Source: Clostridiales bacterium | GTDB lineage: Bacteria > Bacillota > Clostridia > Christensenellales > Borkfalkiaceae | Length of the DNA stretch: 38,224 nt | NCBI GenBank assembly: GCA_015069565.1 | Contig: SVIJ01000009.1 | Span: forward strand, 1 to 38,224 | Direction of reading: 5' to 3' | Shown here: positions 1,973-29,912 of the stretch, one piece after another | Position numbering within the stretch: the first letter of the stretch is position 1 | Layout of the letters: every line of letters begins with the position of its first letter | Notes under the pieces: generated by a model | Databases searched by the model: none | What the model was told of the DNA's origin: nothing | Seen by the model: only the letters and a program-made list of their open reading frames with translations | Position numbers and translations under genes: made by a program

Positions 1973-4720
1973 TTAGTTCTTCGCCTTTTCGAGCATTTCG
2001 CTAACTGCCGCTTGCAATGCTACAAGGTCTTCTTCTGCCTGTGCCTGCGTTGCCGCTTTCAGCGAATAGTAAATTTTGAGCTTGGGCTCTGTCCCCGAAG
2101 GTCTTACACATACGAACGAGCCGCCGCTCAGTTCATAGTACACGCAGTTGCATTTGGGGATATTAAGCGGCACAACCGTGCCTGCCAAATAGTCCTTCCT
2201 AACGTCCGCGCTATAATCGCGGAAGGCTTCCACCGTCCACTCGCCAAGGTTTTTCACGTCCATCGTTTTGAGCGCGTCCACCACGCCGTTCATTTCCTTC
2301 ATCGCATTCAAGCCCGAATACTGAATGGAAACGTTCTTATCCAAAACGTAGCCGTATTTCGCATAGATTTCCTGCAAGCGCGCATAGACGGACTTCCCAA
2401 CGTAGGAATAATAGCAAACCATTTCCGCGCAGAGCATGGACGCAACCACCGCGTCCTTATCTCTTGCGTGCGTGCCGCGCAGGTAGCCGCAGCTTTCTTC
2501 AAAGCCGAATACGTAGGTGTGCTTGCCGTCCGCTTCCCACTGCTTGATTTTTTCGCCGATGAACTTAAAGCCAACGGGCGTTTCGTAGAGTGCTACGCCG
2601 TAATCTTCACAAAGCGCCTTTGCCATACCCGTAGAAACGAACGATTTCACAACCGCCGCATTTGCAGGCATAACGCCGTCTTCGCTCAGTCTTTGCAGGA
2701 TGTAGTCCAAGAGCAAAATGCCCACTTGGTTGCCAGAGAGCGCCACAAACTCGCCTTCGTTGTCACGAACAACCACTCCCAAACGGTCAGCGTCGGGGTC
2801 TGTACCGAATACGACGTCCGCTTGAATTTCGTTGGCAAGCGCAATACCCATCGACATCGTTTCTTTGTATTCGGGATTAGGAACTTTTACAGTCGAGAAC
2901 TCGGTATCCTTCTTTGCCTGTTCTTCCACCACGGTCACGTTGATGCCAAGCTTTTGCAAAATCGCCATAACGGGCTTATAGCCGCTACCATGTACGGGCG
3001 TGTATACGAGCTTTAAGCTCGCGCCGCATTTTTCCACCGCTTCCTTGGAAAGGGTGAGCGCGGAAAGCTCTTCGATATAGTCTTCGTCCAGTTTTGCAGG
3101 AACAGGTAAGATAAGCGGACTGTTCTTTTCACCAGAAACGGACAGGAAATCTTCGATTTTCGAGATATGCGCCACCACCTTTGCGGTGTCCTCGGGGGAC
3201 ATTTGCGCGCCGTCTTCGCCGTAGACCTTATAGCCGTTGTATTCCTTCGGATTGTGGCTTGCCGTGATCATAACCCCTGCCACCGTCTTCAAATAACGCA
3301 CCGCATAAGAGAGCATGGGAACGGGATGCACGTCGTCGAAAAGGTATGCCTTAATACCGTTCTTTGCCAGCACTTCCGCCGTGACGCGAGCAAACTCTTC
3401 CGATTTTCTACGGGTATCGTAAGAAATCACCACGCCGCGCGCCATCGCTTCTGCCCCGAGCGTTTTGATGAATTCCGCAAGCCCTTGCGTCGCGCGCATT
3501 ACGGTGTAGATATTCATCATGTTCATGCCGTAGCCGATGAGCCCACGCATACCAGCCGTACCGAATTCAGGTTCAGCGGCAAAGCGGTACTCTTTTTCCT
3601 TTTCATCGCTCGCAATCGAAAGCAATTCCTGCTTGCCTTCTTCGCAAAGTCTTTCGTCGTGCAACCAAGCTTCATAATTCTTTTGATATTCCATTGTTTT
3701 ATCTCCATTTTTATTATTTTCGTTGTTTTCAGGTTCGGTATGGGGCGGCTCATCGCTCTGCGCCGTTTCGTCTACGTAGTCAAAAAAGTGCTCCGTATCC
3801 CCCTTACACTCGTTGGTGGCAATATCGTCGAAGGTGACGAAATATTTTTTTCCCTTGATTGTGAAGTAATTGACGTACTGCGCGCAAATCAAAAGCACGT
3901 AAGACATCGGAATCGTGATGAGCAGTCCGCTCAAAAAGGTGAACACAATCGCAATCGCGTTGATGGCTACGATGATATAGACAAGTGCCAAATAGAGCGA
4001 GAACGCCTTTCTATGATGCCGCTTTTCCGATTCACGGACGGCGTGTATGGCTTCCTTCAAGCTCATATTATCTGCCGTAATTGCAGGCATCCACGCTGAC
4101 GTAAAAGTGAGCTTCACCGCCTGCCCGACGGCAATCACCGTCATCGACAAAAAGAGCGAGAGCCCCACGTTTACAAAAATGCAAATCACCGCTACGATCG
4201 CCAGCATAACAAGGTCGATTGCAAAAGCAACGGGTACGTAAACCAAAGCGTACTTGGACGCCTTGCCAAGGTTTGCAACGTATGCTTGGCGGAAAGGAGT
4301 TTCCGCATACGTCGTCATACGATCGTTGATGATACTGCCCACCGAAAAATAACACAGGGTGTCCAAAAAGCGTTGCCCCAAGTATACGATGATGCAAGCA
4401 ACCGCTCTTCCGATGATCTCCCCTGCCATCGTCCATACCAAACCGCCAAAGGCAGGCAGGGATTCGTTTACAATTTCGTCACGCAAGCCTTCAAAGGTGC
4501 TCCCCGACGCGTGACCGGGCATAAACTCGGCAAGCAGGGTGCGAATATCCCCCAAAAGGTTGTTCCATTCCACGCTCGAAAAAATCTCTACGAGCTGGGG
4601 CAAGATCAACACCCCGTACAGCGCCGCGCAAATCACGCCTACCACAAGCTTGTAAACGAGTACACGGGATACGTTTTTGAAGTTCTCCGTCAACAAAGTT
4701 AATGTATTTCTAAATCGCAT
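1973..4720 (-). CDS. Multi-pass membrane protein fused in frame to a complete phosphoglucomutase/phosphomannomutase
   Basis: The ORF is 915 residues. Residues 1 to about 300 carry several hydrophobic segments and resemble the separate membrane protein encoded just upstream (4749-5573). Residues about 300-342 are an acidic, Asn-rich linker. Residues 343-915 (573 aa) form a full-length PgcA-type alpha-D-phosphohexomutase. Its phosphoserine loop TASHNPKEYNGYK has the Ser at mutase residue 146, the metal loop is TDPDADRLG, the sugar loop GFEESCGYL and the phosphate loop RPSGTEPKLK. The enzyme interconverts hexose 1- and 6-phosphates for cell-wall and glycolipid precursors. The first start has AAGGAG 7 nt upstream. 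The mutase Met343 has its own GGAGAT ribosome binding site, so a free 573-aa mutase (1973-3694) is probably also made, or is the main product. The gene sits in an envelope-related cluster. Confidence 0.85.
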   Translation of the reverse strand: MRFRNTLTLLTENFKNVSRVLVYKLVVGVICAALYGVLILPQLVEIFSSVEWNNLLGDIRTLLAEFMPGHASGSTFEGLRDEIVNESLPAFGGLVWTMAGEIIGRAVACIIVYLGQRFLDTLCYFSVGSIINDRMTTYAETPFRQAYVANLGKASKYALVYVPVAFAIDLVMLAIVAVICIFVNVGLSLFLSMTVIAVGQAVKLTFTSAWMPAITADNMSLKEAIHAVRESEKRHHRKAFSLYLALVYIIVAINAIAIVFTFLSGLLITIPMSYVLLICAQYVNYFTIKGKKYFVTFDDIATNECKGDTEHFFDYVDETAQSDEPPHTEPENNENNKNGDKTMEYQKNYEAWLHDERLCEEGKQELLSIASDEKEKEYRFAAEPEFGTAGMRGLIGYGMNMMNIYTVMRATQGLAEFIKTLGAEAMARGVVISYDTRRKSEEFARVTAEVLAKNGIKAYLFDDVHPVPMLSYAVRYLKTVAGVMITASHNPKEYNGYKVYGEDGAQMSPEDTAKVVAHISKIEDFLSVSGEKNSPLILPVPAKLDEDYIEELSALTLSKEAVEKCGASLKLVYTPVHGSGYKPVMAILQKLGINVTVVEEQAKKDTEFSTVKVPNPEYKETMSMGIALANEIQADVVFGTDPDADRLGVVVRDNEGEFVALSGNQVGILLLDYILQRLSEDGVMPANAAVVKSFVSTGMAKALCEDYGVALYETPVGFKFIGEKIKQWEADGKHTYVFGFEESCGYLRGTHARDKDAVVASMLCAEMVCYYSYVGKSVYARLQEIYAKYGYVLDKNVSIQYSGLNAMKEMNGVVDALKTMDVKNLGEWTVEAFRDYSADVRKDYLAGTVVPLNIPKCNCVYYELSGGSFVCVRPSGTEPKLKIYYSLKAATQAQAEEDLVALQAAVSEMLEKAKN
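3692..3706 (-). promoter_or_regulatory. Internal ribosome binding site and start codon for the mutase part
   Basis: On the minus strand GGAGAT (3701-3706) stands 8 nt before an in-frame ATG (3692-3694), exactly where homology to stand-alone phosphohexomutases begins. It lies inside the long fused frame, so the transcript may give two products or the fusion may be only a read-through frame. Confidence 0.65.
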
Positions 4721-4748
4721 AAGCTTTCTCCTTTCCTTTTTCGCCCGA

Positions 4749-5573
4749 TTACTCGTAGTATTTTTTCAAGTCTGCGCGTTCGATTTGCTCGCGGTCGAAA
4801 TAGACCACCTGCATACGCACGCAAAATTGCAATATTAAAATCGCATAAAAGAGCGTTGCTACCGTAATCGAAACGATTTGCGCGTCGGGTAAATACACGG
4901 TTGCTAGAACAATCAAGATTTCCGAGAAAAGCAGGGATACCGCCTGCATCACCGTCAGCTTGCCTTGGATAGGCTCGCAAAGTATCTGACCGTACCGCAA
5001 CGCTTCAAACGTTCTAAAACCCGTGATTTGCATACAGGGCAACCAAAGATATATAAAGGAAATCAAGTACGTCAGCACAAAATGGAACGCCACCCACACA
5101 ATCGGGGCTACCACGTACATCAGCGGCGCGGCAAGCCCTAAGCAAAGGGTCAGTACCGCCGCAAGCACGAGCGTCCAAAGCTCATACACGACAAACGTAA
5201 TCAACACCATGCCCAGCGTAGACATCAAATTGTCGTTCAGTTTTCCCCACAGCCCGTTGAACGTCCGCTTGCCAAAGCGCATATGCTTATCGGTGAACGC
5301 CATAAGTAGCGAAACGCAAACCACAAGCGCCGCCACGCCAAAGACGCCCGCAAGCACCGTTTCCCAAGACGCGAAGTTGAAAATGGACACCGCTTGGAAA
5401 ACTTCGGCAAAGGAAATCTCTTTCCAAATCCCTGCAAGGATTTTTTCATAGATTGCCAAAATCTCTTCGCGCGCCACCGTAAAGGAAAGCAAAAACGCAG
5501 GCAAAATAACAAGCGGAAAAACGTAGAAAAAGTTTTTTAAATTATAGGAAATCGTCTTCAAGGTGTATTTCAT
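4749..5573 (-). CDS. Multi-pass membrane protein, paralogue of the N-terminal part of the neighbouring fusion protein
   Basis: The protein has 274 residues with about six hydrophobic segments and a charged C-terminal tail ending in KKYYE. I do not recognise a family. It resembles residues 1-300 of the downstream fusion protein in overall layout. Both start with a short Lys/Asn-rich stretch (NLKN versus NFKN), then a membrane span, an amphipathic stretch, and a conserved W(L/M)P-x-(M/I) segment followed by an EA motif. Even the ribosome binding sites match: AGGAGAAGCTT-ATG here and GGAGAAAGCTT-ATG there. It is 28 nt from the fusion gene and 29 nt from the transglutaminase-like lipoprotein, so all are likely co-transcribed. 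Function unknown; a tandem duplication is inferred. Confidence 0.8.
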   Translation of the reverse strand: MKYTLKTISYNLKNFFYVFPLVILPAFLLSFTVAREEILAIYEKILAGIWKEISFAEVFQAVSIFNFASWETVLAGVFGVAALVVCVSLLMAFTDKHMRFGKRTFNGLWGKLNDNLMSTLGMVLITFVVYELWTLVLAAVLTLCLGLAAPLMYVVAPIVWVAFHFVLTYLISFIYLWLPCMQITGFRTFEALRYGQILCEPIQGKLTVMQAVSLLFSEILIVLATVYLPDAQIVSITVATLFYAILILQFCVRMQVVYFDREQIERADLKKYYE

Positions 5574-26765: not shown

Positions 26766-26794
26766 TCCCCCTTGCCCACCCATCGCTCCCCCCT

Positions 26795-26886
26795 GTCATT
26801 CTGAGCGGAGCGGTAGCGCAGTCGAAGAATCCCTTCCTGCCACCTTGGAACGCCCCTTTTGTCATTCTGAGCGCAGTCGAAGAATC
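26795..26886. repeat. Two direct copies of an intergenic GTCATTCTGAGCG...CAGTCGAAGAATC element
   Basis: Copy 1 is 26795-26831 (37 nt, with an 11-nt internal GC-rich insertion). Copy 2 is 26861-26886 (26 nt). Their ends GTCATTCTGAGCG and CAGTCGAAGAATC are identical. Elements of this type are common between genes in gut bacterial genomes; I know of no proven function. They lie between the leuS stop and its terminator, so they would be transcribed as the leuS 3' UTR. Confidence 0.8.
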
Positions 26887-26900
26887 TCTTACAACAACCA

Positions 26901-26937
26901 AAAAACCGTTGGGCAAAACACCCAACGGTTTTTCTTT
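26901..26937 (+). terminator. Intrinsic terminator of leuS
   Basis: A 13-bp stem (26901-26913 with 26921-26933; CCGTTGGG core) has a 7-nt loop and is followed by TTTTTCTTTT on the plus strand. The A-run on the left arm makes it partly bidirectional, so it could also stop the radical SAM operon. Confidence 0.88.
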
Positions 26938-26994
26938 TCGTAAAATCCTCAAAGTGATATATCGTATTTCAACAATGTTCTCGCTTCAAAAAAA

Positions 26995-28092
26995 TCAATC
27001 ATTATATCCCAATACTTTTTGAACGCCAATTATCCAAGCCTTTTCCTGTTCTTCGTTCTCAAACTTAAACTCTCCAAGTTCCCACAGCTTTGCTTGAAAC
27101 TCCGCATTGATTCTAAACACGATCTTATACATTTCGCAATACGGTTTGTCTACTTTATATATATCGCCATTTTTTGAAAAGTTTGCTCCAAAACAAAAAT
27201 GGCAAATTCTTTTATATATACATTCCTTGCAATCGTGTTCCACTCGGCTCATATCCATAAACTCTTTTGGAATATCAACTTCATCGAACTGTTGACTTCT
27301 CTCTTTTACAGATGTGGGCATAAACAAATGGCATGGATACTCTTTCCCATCCACGTCATACAAATGTAAATAATGCTTCGAGCCACAATACGTTCTAAAA
27401 ACGCCGTCATCGCTTCCAAGCAAATACAACGGCTCCATCAAAAAACGGCAATCTGCTTTTACTTCTTTATGCTCAATATACCAGTCTTTCAATAGATTCA
27501 ACTGTTGCTCTAAGATTTTTCCATCTTCTTCCAAATCCCACTCTACGCCATAAGCAAGATTAGAATCTATTTTATTGAACCCCAAAGAAATCAAATGGGT
27601 TATACTATCAAATAAGTATCTCAACCCGAATTTGGAAACAGTCATTTTTACGCCTTGATTTGGATAGGTCTTCGCAAAAAACGCATAGTCAACATCATCA
27701 TATGAATTACTTCTATCATGATCTTGCACCAATTTAATCCCATCCATACTAAGCCCGCAAACAATCCGATCTGTATGCGCCCTCAGCCACGCTTTCATTT
27801 CATCCGTTAAGCGTGTTCCGTTCGTCGTAATAAAAACGCTCCACGGTAAGTCAATTTGCAATGAACATAAATAATCAAATATTGATACTATTGCAGGAAA
27901 CTCCATAAACGGCTCACCGCCAAATAAGTCAAAGATAAACTCATCGTACCCTTCCGTTTCTTTGATTTCCTTATCAATGATCTGCTTTGCTAAATTTAAA
28001 TCAAGGGAAGCCGTAGACTTCCCTTCTTCATAACAATATTTACACCGCAAATTGCATTTATTGGTCAATACTAATGTTATTGTTTTGAACAT
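26995..28092 (-). CDS. Radical SAM/SPASM peptide maturase
   Basis: The protein has 365 residues. The radical SAM cluster motif is CNLRCKYC (Cys13, Cys17, Cys20), with FGGEP at 57-61. A C-terminal SPASM domain carries seven cysteines (236, 254, 288, 291, 297, 300, 319): C-x13-G-x4-C followed by C-x2-C-x5-C-x2-C-x18-C, enough for two auxiliary [4Fe-4S] clusters. Such enzymes install thioether or carbon-carbon crosslinks in ribosomal peptides, or modify sulfatases. Its ATG lies 3 nt after the stop of a Cys-rich 59-residue peptide gene, which makes that peptide the likely substrate. No separate RiPP recognition domain is obvious; the protein begins directly with the SAM barrel. AT-rich codons set it apart from the neighbours, suggesting transfer. 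Confidence 0.93.
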   Translation of the reverse strand: MFKTITLVLTNKCNLRCKYCYEEGKSTASLDLNLAKQIIDKEIKETEGYDEFIFDLFGGEPFMEFPAIVSIFDYLCSLQIDLPWSVFITTNGTRLTDEMKAWLRAHTDRIVCGLSMDGIKLVQDHDRSNSYDDVDYAFFAKTYPNQGVKMTVSKFGLRYLFDSITHLISLGFNKIDSNLAYGVEWDLEEDGKILEQQLNLLKDWYIEHKEVKADCRFLMEPLYLLGSDDGVFRTYCGSKHYLHLYDVDGKEYPCHLFMPTSVKERSQQFDEVDIPKEFMDMSRVEHDCKECIYKRICHFCFGANFSKNGDIYKVDKPYCEMYKIVFRINAEFQAKLWELGEFKFENEEQEKAWIIGVQKVLGYND

Positions 28093-28095
28093 AGC

Positions 28096-28275
28096 TTACC
28101 TACGCGGACAGGGAGAATAACTGGCGCATCCACCGCCACATCCCCTGCAACCGCTACAAGACGCGGCACATCCAGAAACACATATACCCATGATCATATT
28201 CGATGTGTTCACCGTTGCTGGAATCATTTTAAGCTCTTGCAATCTAATCATCAATTTTTCTTTTAATGTTCTCAT
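28096..28275 (-). CDS. Cys-rich RiPP precursor peptide candidate (59 aa, seven Cys)
   Basis: The ATG at 28275 follows GGAG by 9 nt; the stop is at 28096-28098. Residues 1-30 form a charged, Cys-free leader starting MRTLKEKLMIRLQELK. Residues 31-59 form a Gly/Ser/Cys-rich core with Cys at 32, 36, 40, 43, 46, 50 and 56 (spacings 3, 3, 2, 2, 3, 5), ending PCPRR. All cysteines are in the C-terminal half, as in sactipeptide, ranthipeptide and other radical SAM-modified precursors. It is the first gene of a two-gene operon with the SPASM maturase and has its own strong promoter. It does not match the SCIFF spacing I know, and I cannot assign it to a named family. No protease or exporter gene is next to it. 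Confidence 0.82.
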   Translation of the reverse strand: MRTLKEKLMIRLQELKMIPATVNTSNMIMGICVSGCAASCSGCRGCGGGCASYSPCPRR

Positions 28276-28308
28276 ACAAATATACTCCGTATAATATTTT
28301 GTATTTTA

Positions 28309-28350
28309 ACTATACTCTTATTATTGTAAGATGTCAAGTATTTTTCTTAC
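28309..28350 (-). promoter_or_regulatory. Promoter of the peptide-maturase operon with a candidate operator
   Basis: On the minus strand TTGACA (28332-28337), a 17-nt spacer and TATAGT (28309-28314). An inverted repeat GTAAGA-N13-TCTTAC (28326-28331 and 28345-28350) straddles the -35. A second one, AAGTAT-N18-ATACTT (28336-28341 and 28360-28365), reaches toward the XRE start. Both suit binding by the divergent XRE protein; that is inference. Confidence 0.7.
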
Positions 28351-28370
28351 TTTTGTGAGATACTTTTTAT

Positions 28371-28577
28371 ATGGAAAACATTTTTGGCGAACGATTAAAA
28401 GAACTACGACTAGAAAAAGGAATCGGGCAAATAGATTTAGCAAAGAAAATTCACGTCAGTAAAGGTATTATCAGTCTTTGGGAAAACGGTTTTCGTGAAC
28501 TAAAATTATCCAATTTAATTTCCTTAGCTTTATCTTCAGGTGTTTCTATTGACTATTTGGCAGGATTAGAAGATTGA
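28371..28577 (+). CDS. XRE-family helix-turn-helix regulator
   Basis: The protein has 68 residues and is almost entirely one Cro/C1-type HTH_3 domain (about 7-63): RLKELRLEKGIGQIDLAKKI, then VSKGIISLWENG, ending in the typical VSIDYLAGLED. It is divergent from the peptide-maturase operon, with 95 nt between the starts. It is therefore the likely local regulator, and probably autoregulated. The Shine-Dalgarno sequence is weak (GTGAG about 11 nt upstream). It shares the AT-rich composition of the cassette. Confidence 0.9.
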   Translation: MENIFGERLKELRLEKGIGQIDLAKKIHVSKGIISLWENGFRELKLSNLISLALSSGVSIDYLAGLED

Positions 28578-28591
28578 AACTTGCTTTATAT

Positions 28592-28630
28592 AAAAAACAA
28601 GCCTTCCTTGTATAAGAAAGACTTGTTTTT
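28592..28630. terminator. Bidirectional terminator between xre and mrp
   Basis: An imperfect long stem has arms AAAACAAG...CTT and AAG...CTTGTTTT with a GTAT loop and C-A mismatches. It has T-rich sequence on both outer sides and lies between two convergent gene ends. Confidence 0.65.
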
Positions 28631-28634
28631 CTTT

Positions 28635-29640: not shown

Positions 29641-29912
29641 GGCTGCGCGTAGGCGGGGAGTTAGCGGCACCCTGTACCCGAAATCCGCTATATCGGGGCT
29701 GAACGCCTTTCTCGGCATCGGCTATGGAAGGTTGCGCGTCGTAAGGAACGTTGATAACAAGGTCTTATGCAACGTGATACCGTGAACCGTGTCAGGACAG
29801 GAATGTAGCAGCACTAAGCGGACCATCGCGTGTGCCATAAGGTAGCTTTGAGGGAGTCACCTGCGGCGTTTCCACTTCGGTGGTCTATGACAAAAAAGGC
29901 TCGCGCAGTTTT
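29641..29912 (+). ncRNA. ffs: Signal recognition particle RNA, large bacterial (Bacillus) type with Alu domain
   Basis: The transcript is about 272 nt. The 5' Alu-domain sequence GCGGGGAGTTAGCGGCACCC and the following CTGTACC...ATCCGCT closely follow B. subtilis scRNA. The S-domain helix 8 reads GTCAGG-ACA-GGAA-TGT-AGCAGC, with a GGAA tetraloop and both conserved internal loops for Ffh binding. The 5' end CTGCGCG pairs with CGCGCAG at 29902-29908, followed by six T. It binds Ffh to target nascent membrane and secreted proteins. Confidence 0.95.

Follow-up and report, generated by a model that had tools for sequence, protein, structure and literature searches.

Among the described enzymes closest to the system reported here, CteB, a SCIFF maturase, is reported to bind the leader of its substrate through an N-terminal RRE, the recognition element of ribosomally synthesized and post-translationally modified peptides (RiPPs; PMC8326336), and PapB, the maturase of PapA (freyrasin), is reported to join Cys to Asp or Glu within CX3D motifs (PMC9413430). 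For the CXXX-repeat family accessions, titles and opening lines of abstracts revealed no paper on the family, and the term CXXX does not occur in the available text of the genome-mining papers PMC9062424 and PMC10352776. Here, we analyze a 38,224-nt stretch of Clostridiales DNA (contig SVIJ01000009.1, positions 1 to 38,224; hereafter the window, whose positions we use throughout). It holds a 1.7-kb insert that comprises a Cys-rich peptide gene, a gene for a radical S-adenosylmethionine (SAM)/SPASM maturase, and a divergently oriented gene for an XRE regulator.

We consider it probable that this insert is a compact RiPP cassette that belongs, as a divergent case, to an unmodelled, RRE-less maturase clade and stands under a switch typical of its genus, and that it works by the mechanism proposed below. 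Neither the maturase clade nor the XRE module is described in the abstract openings of the matches listed from the open-licence PMC literature. The genomes compared were species representatives, many of them incomplete; the window's own genome is 82.8% complete.

An unmodelled maturase clade

The maturase gene (26995..28092, minus strand) encodes 365 aa. Its ten Fe-S Cys, namely C13, C17, and C20 of the CX3CX2C motif and the SPASM residues C236, C254, C288, C291, C297, C300, and C319 (the final run being CX2CX5CX2C), are all invariant in an eight-row alignment. Together with a Pfam match of 40 bits, a fold model, and a match to CteB, they place the protein among radical SAM/SPASM RiPP maturases in the broad sense; the fold matches also include ChlB (9gm3, an entry whose title names a leader complex). 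Since the radical SAM match begins at residue 2-3 and the first Cys is residue 13, there is no room for an N-terminal RRE, for which no RRE model was run.

At the level of families, all scores were low. The best NCBIfam model was TIGR04115 (139.5 bits, cut-off 350), and the PapB model NF047865 (135.8 bits, cut-off 340) and the SCIFF model TIGR03974 (79.7 bits, cut-off 425) also fell short. The best models of eight other clade members tested gave 100.9-161.3 bits, again below the cut-offs, and in seven of the eight the PapB model outscored TIGR04115. In a tree of 45 rows, 27 rows including the window's formed one clade (support 96/91). Outside it fell L157, a TIGR04115 protein (487 bits) with a fused TIGR04119 domain (278.8), as well as seven rows from viral contigs and the SCIFF-type rows; the near copies L162 and L171 and the locus L050, which has no usable frame, were left out of the tree. 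By these scores, the clade is unmodelled: its neighbours are the CXXX-repeat, PapB, and SCIFF maturases, whose NCBIfam cut-offs it misses by a wide margin. A second maturase, of SCIFF type, is encoded in the same genome (G000:C18:20351-21376, L002).

Clade members were collected from several sources. A maturase profile at E <= 1e-60 detected 14 of 398 family, 8 of 395 order, and 3 of 398 phylum genomes, where the samples overlap and each count includes the window's genome. The class sample (51 of 391 genomes at E <= 1e-40) added only L048, the remainder matching no better than E 1.1e-59; four of this remainder were placed in the tree (L049, L051, L056, L060), and all lay outside the clade. Further loci were L003 and L004 from genome contigs, L156 from a plasmid record, and L158 from a phage-labelled record; the single-sequence search of genome contigs had given three loci, of which L005 was dropped (match to residues 5-174 only). 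With the duplicates L046, L047, L159, L173, and L174 counted once, the set comprised 27 loci and 29 maturases. Viral relatives, at most 33% identical, were represented by 80 loci kept out of at least 309, with 7 used in the tree and 25 in the structure alignment, and matching records numbered 62 for plasmids and 65 for phages, of which three were opened (H1, H2, H11).

The precursor peptide and its relatives

The putative precursor gene (28096..28275, minus strand, 59 aa) was called as an open reading frame (ORF) and from the peptides beside related maturases, and its end is separated from the maturase gene by 3 nt on the same strand. A Cys-free leader (residues 1-31, 28183-28275) is followed by a core (residues 32-59, 28099-28182) with seven Cys at positions 32, 36, 40, 43, 46, 50, and 56, and by the stop codon (28096-28098). 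The Cys gaps are thus 3,3,2,2,3,5, with three of the six spanning three residues, and the core contains no Asp or Glu, i.e., no CX3D/E acceptor motifs. A ribosome-binding site (GGAG, 28285..28288, minus strand) can be read 9 nt upstream of the ATG. A preliminary description of this DNA had reported the peptide gene, the adjoining maturase gene with a complete set of SPASM Cys, and the divergent XRE gene, and our reading agrees with it to the base.

To ask how unusual such a peptide is, we scored ORFs shorter than 200 aa with at least three CxxxC, or at least four CxxC/CxxxC, motifs. The 59-aa peptide was the only one in the window, and 47 comparison loci (163 kb) yielded two: a SCIFF-like peptide in L196, and the window's own peptide (L201, the window's mrp locus, did not belong in the comparison set). 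By this criterion, the peptide is more than a chance occurrence. Its single NCBIfam match was TIGR04117 (21 bits, cut-off 50), and no SCIFF model matched it at E <= 10. When the peptide was searched against 61 relatives, 11 genomes, its own included, matched at E <= 0.1, none of the others convincingly; the best non-self match (E 0.002) lay inside a 594-aa frame.

The preliminary description had named two outcomes that would speak against a minimal RiPP cassette: related maturases without a neighbouring Cys-rich peptide, and a peptide frame that is not conserved. Under a fixed criterion, we found a CxxxC-type peptide within 2.5 kb of the maturase in 25 of the 27 clade loci, mostly directly adjacent (in L007 another gene intervenes), which supports the minimal cassette; the two exceptions, L048 and L156, have peptides of 48 and 47 aa with two and three Cys. 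In all ten related peptide pairs, which share sequences and are therefore not independent, synonymous change per site exceeded nonsynonymous change; the ratio dN/dS was 0.01-0.24 in seven pairs, and dS was saturated in three. The relatives' peptides thus look to be under purifying selection, and neither of the two adverse outcomes was seen among the relatives; the window's own peptide, without a close relative in the genomes searched, is not among the pairs.

Across 30 family peptides, including the window's, 142 of 179 Cys gaps span three residues and 19 span two. Within the 142, the second residue is mostly Gly (65), and the third is Ser (44) or Thr (32) in 76 together. The first Cys is residue 32 in 9 of the 29 other peptides as well, and the clade member L178 shows mixed CxxC/CxxxC spacing like that of the window. 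On these sequence comparisons, the window peptide does not stand alone but belongs to a CXXX-type family, from whose other members it diverges.

Several relatives have unusual arrangements. L178 (G1149:C162) encodes two 118-aa precursors in tandem, whose cores mix CxxC with CxxxC and lead into a similar Cys-poor tail. In a Prevotella metagenome-assembled genome (MAG; L003:2616-5245) and a faecal phage-labelled contig (L158:681-3777), two different clade maturases flank one CxxxC peptide, and in a Synergistaceae MAG (L004:5104-7107) three consecutive CxxxC-repeat peptides (9, 15, and 9 Cys) stand ahead of one maturase. A Phocaeicola plasmid record (L156:3062-3205 and 4694-4843) has two copies of a 47-49-aa peptide ending in CGCSGDCGSNWM, the first directly after a clade maturase.

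These data bear on an alternative that we regard as possible though unlikely, namely an ordinary CXXX-repeat RiPP system of the TIGR04115/TIGR04119/TIGR04117 type that has merely diverged. CXXX models rank first for both the maturase (TIGR04115) and the peptide (TIGR04117), three-residue gaps prevail in the relatives' peptides, and two of seven relatives' peptides tested narrowly exceed the TIGR04114 repeat cut-off of 20 (20.7 and 22.2). However, the maturase and the eight other clade members score far under the cut-off that L157 passes, L157 itself lies outside the clade, and the PapB model does better than TIGR04115 in most of those members. The TIGR04119 domain fused in L157 is missing from the cassette: it was absent from the best 25 families of the maturase and from the adjacent genes, a genome-wide search not having been made.

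A control module typical of the genus

The regulator gene (28371..28577, plus strand) encodes a 68-aa XRE protein that consists only of a DNA-binding domain (HTH_3, 43.9 bits). Between it and the peptide gene lie two dyads, exactly 29 bp apart, which we take as putative operators. O1, TCTTATTATTGTAAGA (28316..28331), is situated within the 17-nt spacer of a promoter-like site for the peptide and maturase genes (TTGACA-17-TATAGT, 28309..28337, minus strand, 11 of 12 consensus positions). O2, TCTTACTTTTGTGAGA (28345..28360), is 10 nt ahead of the XRE ATG and may overlap an extended -10 element of the XRE gene. Because a scan for promoter-like sites found 7 in 2 kb where 6.2 are expected by chance, the weight of this site comes from its conservation.

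An XRE match of some kind was found in 56 of 57 genomes of the genus. We examined the 12 best loci (L189-L200), i.e., the window and 11 others with 63-82% identity. In all 12, the two best dyads before the XRE start are exactly 29 bp apart, and in ten both are within one mismatch; O1 is divergent in L199 and L200, with its symmetry kept in L199. A divergent promoter matching at least 10 of 12 positions is present in nine of the loci. A search for the operator pair in 39 genus genomes, with a pattern derived from these loci, returned seven places, exactly the seven XRE loci of that sample, and none with the reversed control. No exact match to the pair was found in viral contigs.

The other 11 loci carry the operator pair without a RiPP. 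Six have clear and different divergent genes. Those of L190, L191, and L194 encode a DUF4177 protein, a bacterial PH domain, and a zinc ribbon, respectively, and the products of those in L193, L197, and L198 reach no Pfam cut-off. L192 and L196 have the promoter and no clear divergent gene, and L195, L199, and L200 have neither a clear divergent gene nor a good promoter. Two assignments were discarded: SHOCT for the cargo of L197, which Pfam does not support, and a 157-aa gene of L195 as divergent cargo, since it sits downstream on the XRE strand. The flanking genes identified, from loci other than L191 and L195, vary (acyltransferase, gltX-like/pyruvate kinase, dapB, dus, tgt, short-chain dehydrogenase/leuS, DHH, and lgt), and the unit thus occupies several places in the genome. 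L199 and L200 share one place (a neighbour is 84% identical), and L197 stands beside leuS, as in the window, with other cargo.

By this comparison, XRE-O1-O2 is a genus-typical control module that accompanies other cargo elsewhere and is not a private RiPP regulator. As the same XRE and paired dyads recur in the 11 other loci, it would be this switch that drives the RiPP.

Divergent XRE genes are also found at RiPP loci of other genera (the near copies L164 and L165, and L176). They are more distant, and their dyads have other sequences: L164 and L165 have two, 30 bp apart, and L176 has one exact dyad; XRE control of this kind of RiPP may therefore have arisen more than once. We rejected the idea that XRE is a general partner of these RiPPs, since XRE-like genes occur in 5 of the 27 clade loci.

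An insert between leuS and mrp

The cassette lies in an AT-rich segment (26940..28633, ends approximate) with a GC content of 0.356, compared with 0.507 and 0.508 in the 5 kb on either side. It adjoins leuS (TIGR00396, 1003 bits, cut-off 548) and a gene for an mrp/ApbC-like ATPase (best model 314.7 bits, under the cut-off of 450), and thus has no adjacent protease or transporter. In three genomes of the same genus, leuS and mrp lie tail to tail without an insert. The gap of 1869 nt in the window corresponds there to about 139, 61, and 70 nt (L202, L204, and L223, with the bounding stop codons chosen by eye). The maturase was found in none of the 56 other genomes of the genus, many of them incomplete.

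A predicted bidirectional terminator 3' of leuS (26901..26934) would also end the maturase transcript. Since the insert-free L202 has a matching hairpin after its leuS, the terminator predates the insert, which begins after it. At the other end, a hairpin 3' of XRE (28593..28630, 17-nt arms, 88% complementary) is a probable terminator, absent from the list of the terminator scan. No other genes were recognized in the insert, and no good pair of direct repeats joins its ends. Adjacent leuS and mrp are not the rule in the genus, as only 3 of 29 mrp loci compared had leuS within the fetched stretch.

The surroundings offered further observations. Between leuS and the terminator (26794-26899) are repeats, two copies of GTCATTCTGAGCG and a 30-nt pair at 83%, and in L202 a stretch GTCATTCTGAGC is located 3' of the leuS terminator. 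A bacterial large signal recognition particle RNA is encoded at 29643-29908 (plus strand, 169.1 bits).

Predicted mechanism and alternative explanations

In the mechanism we propose, the single promoter-like site would serve the peptide gene it precedes and then the maturase gene 3 nt on. The leader, probably a helix with hydrophobic residues at positions 4, 8, 12, and 15, would bind directly to the barrel/SPASM surface of the maturase, with no RRE. The maturase would then install radical thioether links between core Cys and nearby residues, each with a loss of 2 Da. We infer both steps from kinship with CteB, PapB, and the CXXX maturases; the crosslinks could be of carbon or thioether type. 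The sequence evidence strongly suggests that the XRE protein uses O1 to repress the cassette and O2 to repress its own gene. Lacking a sensor domain and persisting while the cargo changes, XRE is probably not a sensor of the peptide; the cassette would more likely be derepressed when the repressor is lost or diluted, or on arrival in a cell that lacks it. Here, module and RiPP make up a single 1.7-kb insert at the leuS-mrp junction, and we favour a reading in which a small crosslinked peptide is produced only once the switch opens. No peptidase C39 was found in the 82.8%-complete genome.

Of the RiPP reading given in the preliminary description, the minimal AT-rich cassette, its non-SCIFF character, and the lack of a protease or transporter stand, with two corrections: the peptide is part of a family, and the XRE is no private RiPP regulator. 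It made no mention of the paired operators, the absence of an N-terminal RRE, or the relatives that lack the insert.

A number of points weigh against the compact cassette as we describe it. Its chemistry and expression are predicted from sequence, and the absence of an RRE concerns the maturase itself, the genome not having been searched for a stand-alone PqqD-like RRE. The window maturase is on a long branch (1.17), and no supported group inside the clade holds its row. The core departs from the family in having two CxxC gaps and no Thr, and Ser or Thr, frequent before Cys in relatives, precedes Cys in only one of its six gaps (a Ser). The leader resembles those of relatives only weakly (as high a score is reached by 679 of 20,000 shuffles), and its second residue is Arg, a position held by Phe in 17 of 24 relatives. 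XRE-like genes are scarce in the clade even with the window's included. The dyad pattern TCTTAYNNTTGTRAGA is expected 0.06 times in the window, and O1 and O2 are its only perfect matches in the genome, but both facts carry little weight because the pattern derives from O1 and O2 themselves; at two mismatches, the genome has 33 matches against 23 for the reversed control, near background. The real evidence for the operators is their conservation.

Some of these departures could indicate a decaying, non-functional cassette, captured under an alien promoter and with a core that is losing acceptor residues: the long branch, the aberrant Cys spacing with few Ser/Thr before Cys, and the presence in 1 of 57 genus genomes would all fit. 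We nevertheless hold this to be improbable, as the three ORFs are intact, the ribosome-binding site, the 11/12 promoter, both dyads, and all ten Fe-S Cys are kept, and L178 has mixed spacing in two intact copies. We give appreciably less credence to an unmodified metal-binding peptide beside a radical SAM enzyme that acts elsewhere. The density of CxxC/CxxxC motifs would suit metal binding, and no protease or exporter is adjacent; against it are the 3-nt adjacency and the linkage of peptide and maturase in 25 of 27 loci from several phyla. Comparably slight is the chance of a toxin-antitoxin-like pair with XRE as antitoxin or repressor and the peptide as toxin. The divergent arrangement with operators and the weak likeness of XRE to RstR (36 bits, cut-off 80) and HipB-like models are in keeping with such a pair, but in relatives the same XRE accompanies quite different genes, so there is no fixed toxin, and a maturase is not a usual component.

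If the compact RiPP cassette is as we propose, it identifies an unmodelled clade of compact maturases without the usual leader-binding RRE, and its two-gene pair, 424 residues in all, could serve to test RRE-less leader recognition. It also supplies a concrete, testable operator for a RiPP cassette of this kind. The regulator appears to be part of a moving control unit rather than of the peptide pathway; neighbouring regulators should thus not be assumed to be RiPP sensors. The most surprising part is the switch with exchangeable cargo. We tentatively suggest, with considerable doubt, that XRE-O1-O2 is a genus-wide, location-changing control dock, in which a 68-aa autorepressor and a fixed 29-bp operator pair, set between different housekeeping genes, govern exchangeable cargo (unrelated small genes elsewhere, a whole RiPP pathway here) and act as a transfer timer. 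Cargo would be made in a repressor-free recipient and shut off as XRE accumulates, a speculative role modelled on restriction-modification controller proteins as presented in PMC3115060 and PMC8053105.

Comparison with known systems

The CXXX-repeat system (TIGR04115, TIGR04119, and the targets TIGR04114/04117/04118) shares with the window a radical SAM/SPASM enzyme beside a CxxxC-rich peptide and provides the best NCBIfam model. The window differs in scoring far below the cut-off, in lacking a TIGR04119 domain or adjacent partner, in belonging to a separate clade, and in having CxxC besides CxxxC in its core. PapB/PapA shares the NF047865 match and a multi-Cys substrate; the window maturase is below that model's cut-off, and the window core has no Asp/Glu. 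From CteB/CteA it is set apart by the absence of the N-terminal RRE of CteB. Membership in the SCIFF ranthipeptides, for which a Cys-rich peptide and a SPASM maturase of CteB fold would speak, is the least credible of the alternatives and was rejected on the low TIGR03974 score, the missing RRE, and the tree; moreover, the peptide is unmatched by SCIFF models, and the genome already has a separate SCIFF-type maturase (C18).

For the regulator, the closest solved relatives are the Xre regulator of the integrative and conjugative element (ICE) ICEBs1 (7t8i), the 434 and P22 repressors, and C.AhdI. As a phage-type repressor, the window XRE has the HTH_3 fold and the dyads, with the RstR model below cut-off and DNA binding predicted only; it does not qualify as a restriction-modification controller protein, its neighbours being the RiPP genes, leuS, and the mrp-like gene. 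What it shares with these relatives is, by sequence, an XRE protein that is helix-turn-helix only, with paired dyads at a divergent promoter region. It differs from them in standing without adjacent phage, ICE, or restriction-modification genes, and in that its cargo is a predicted RiPP.
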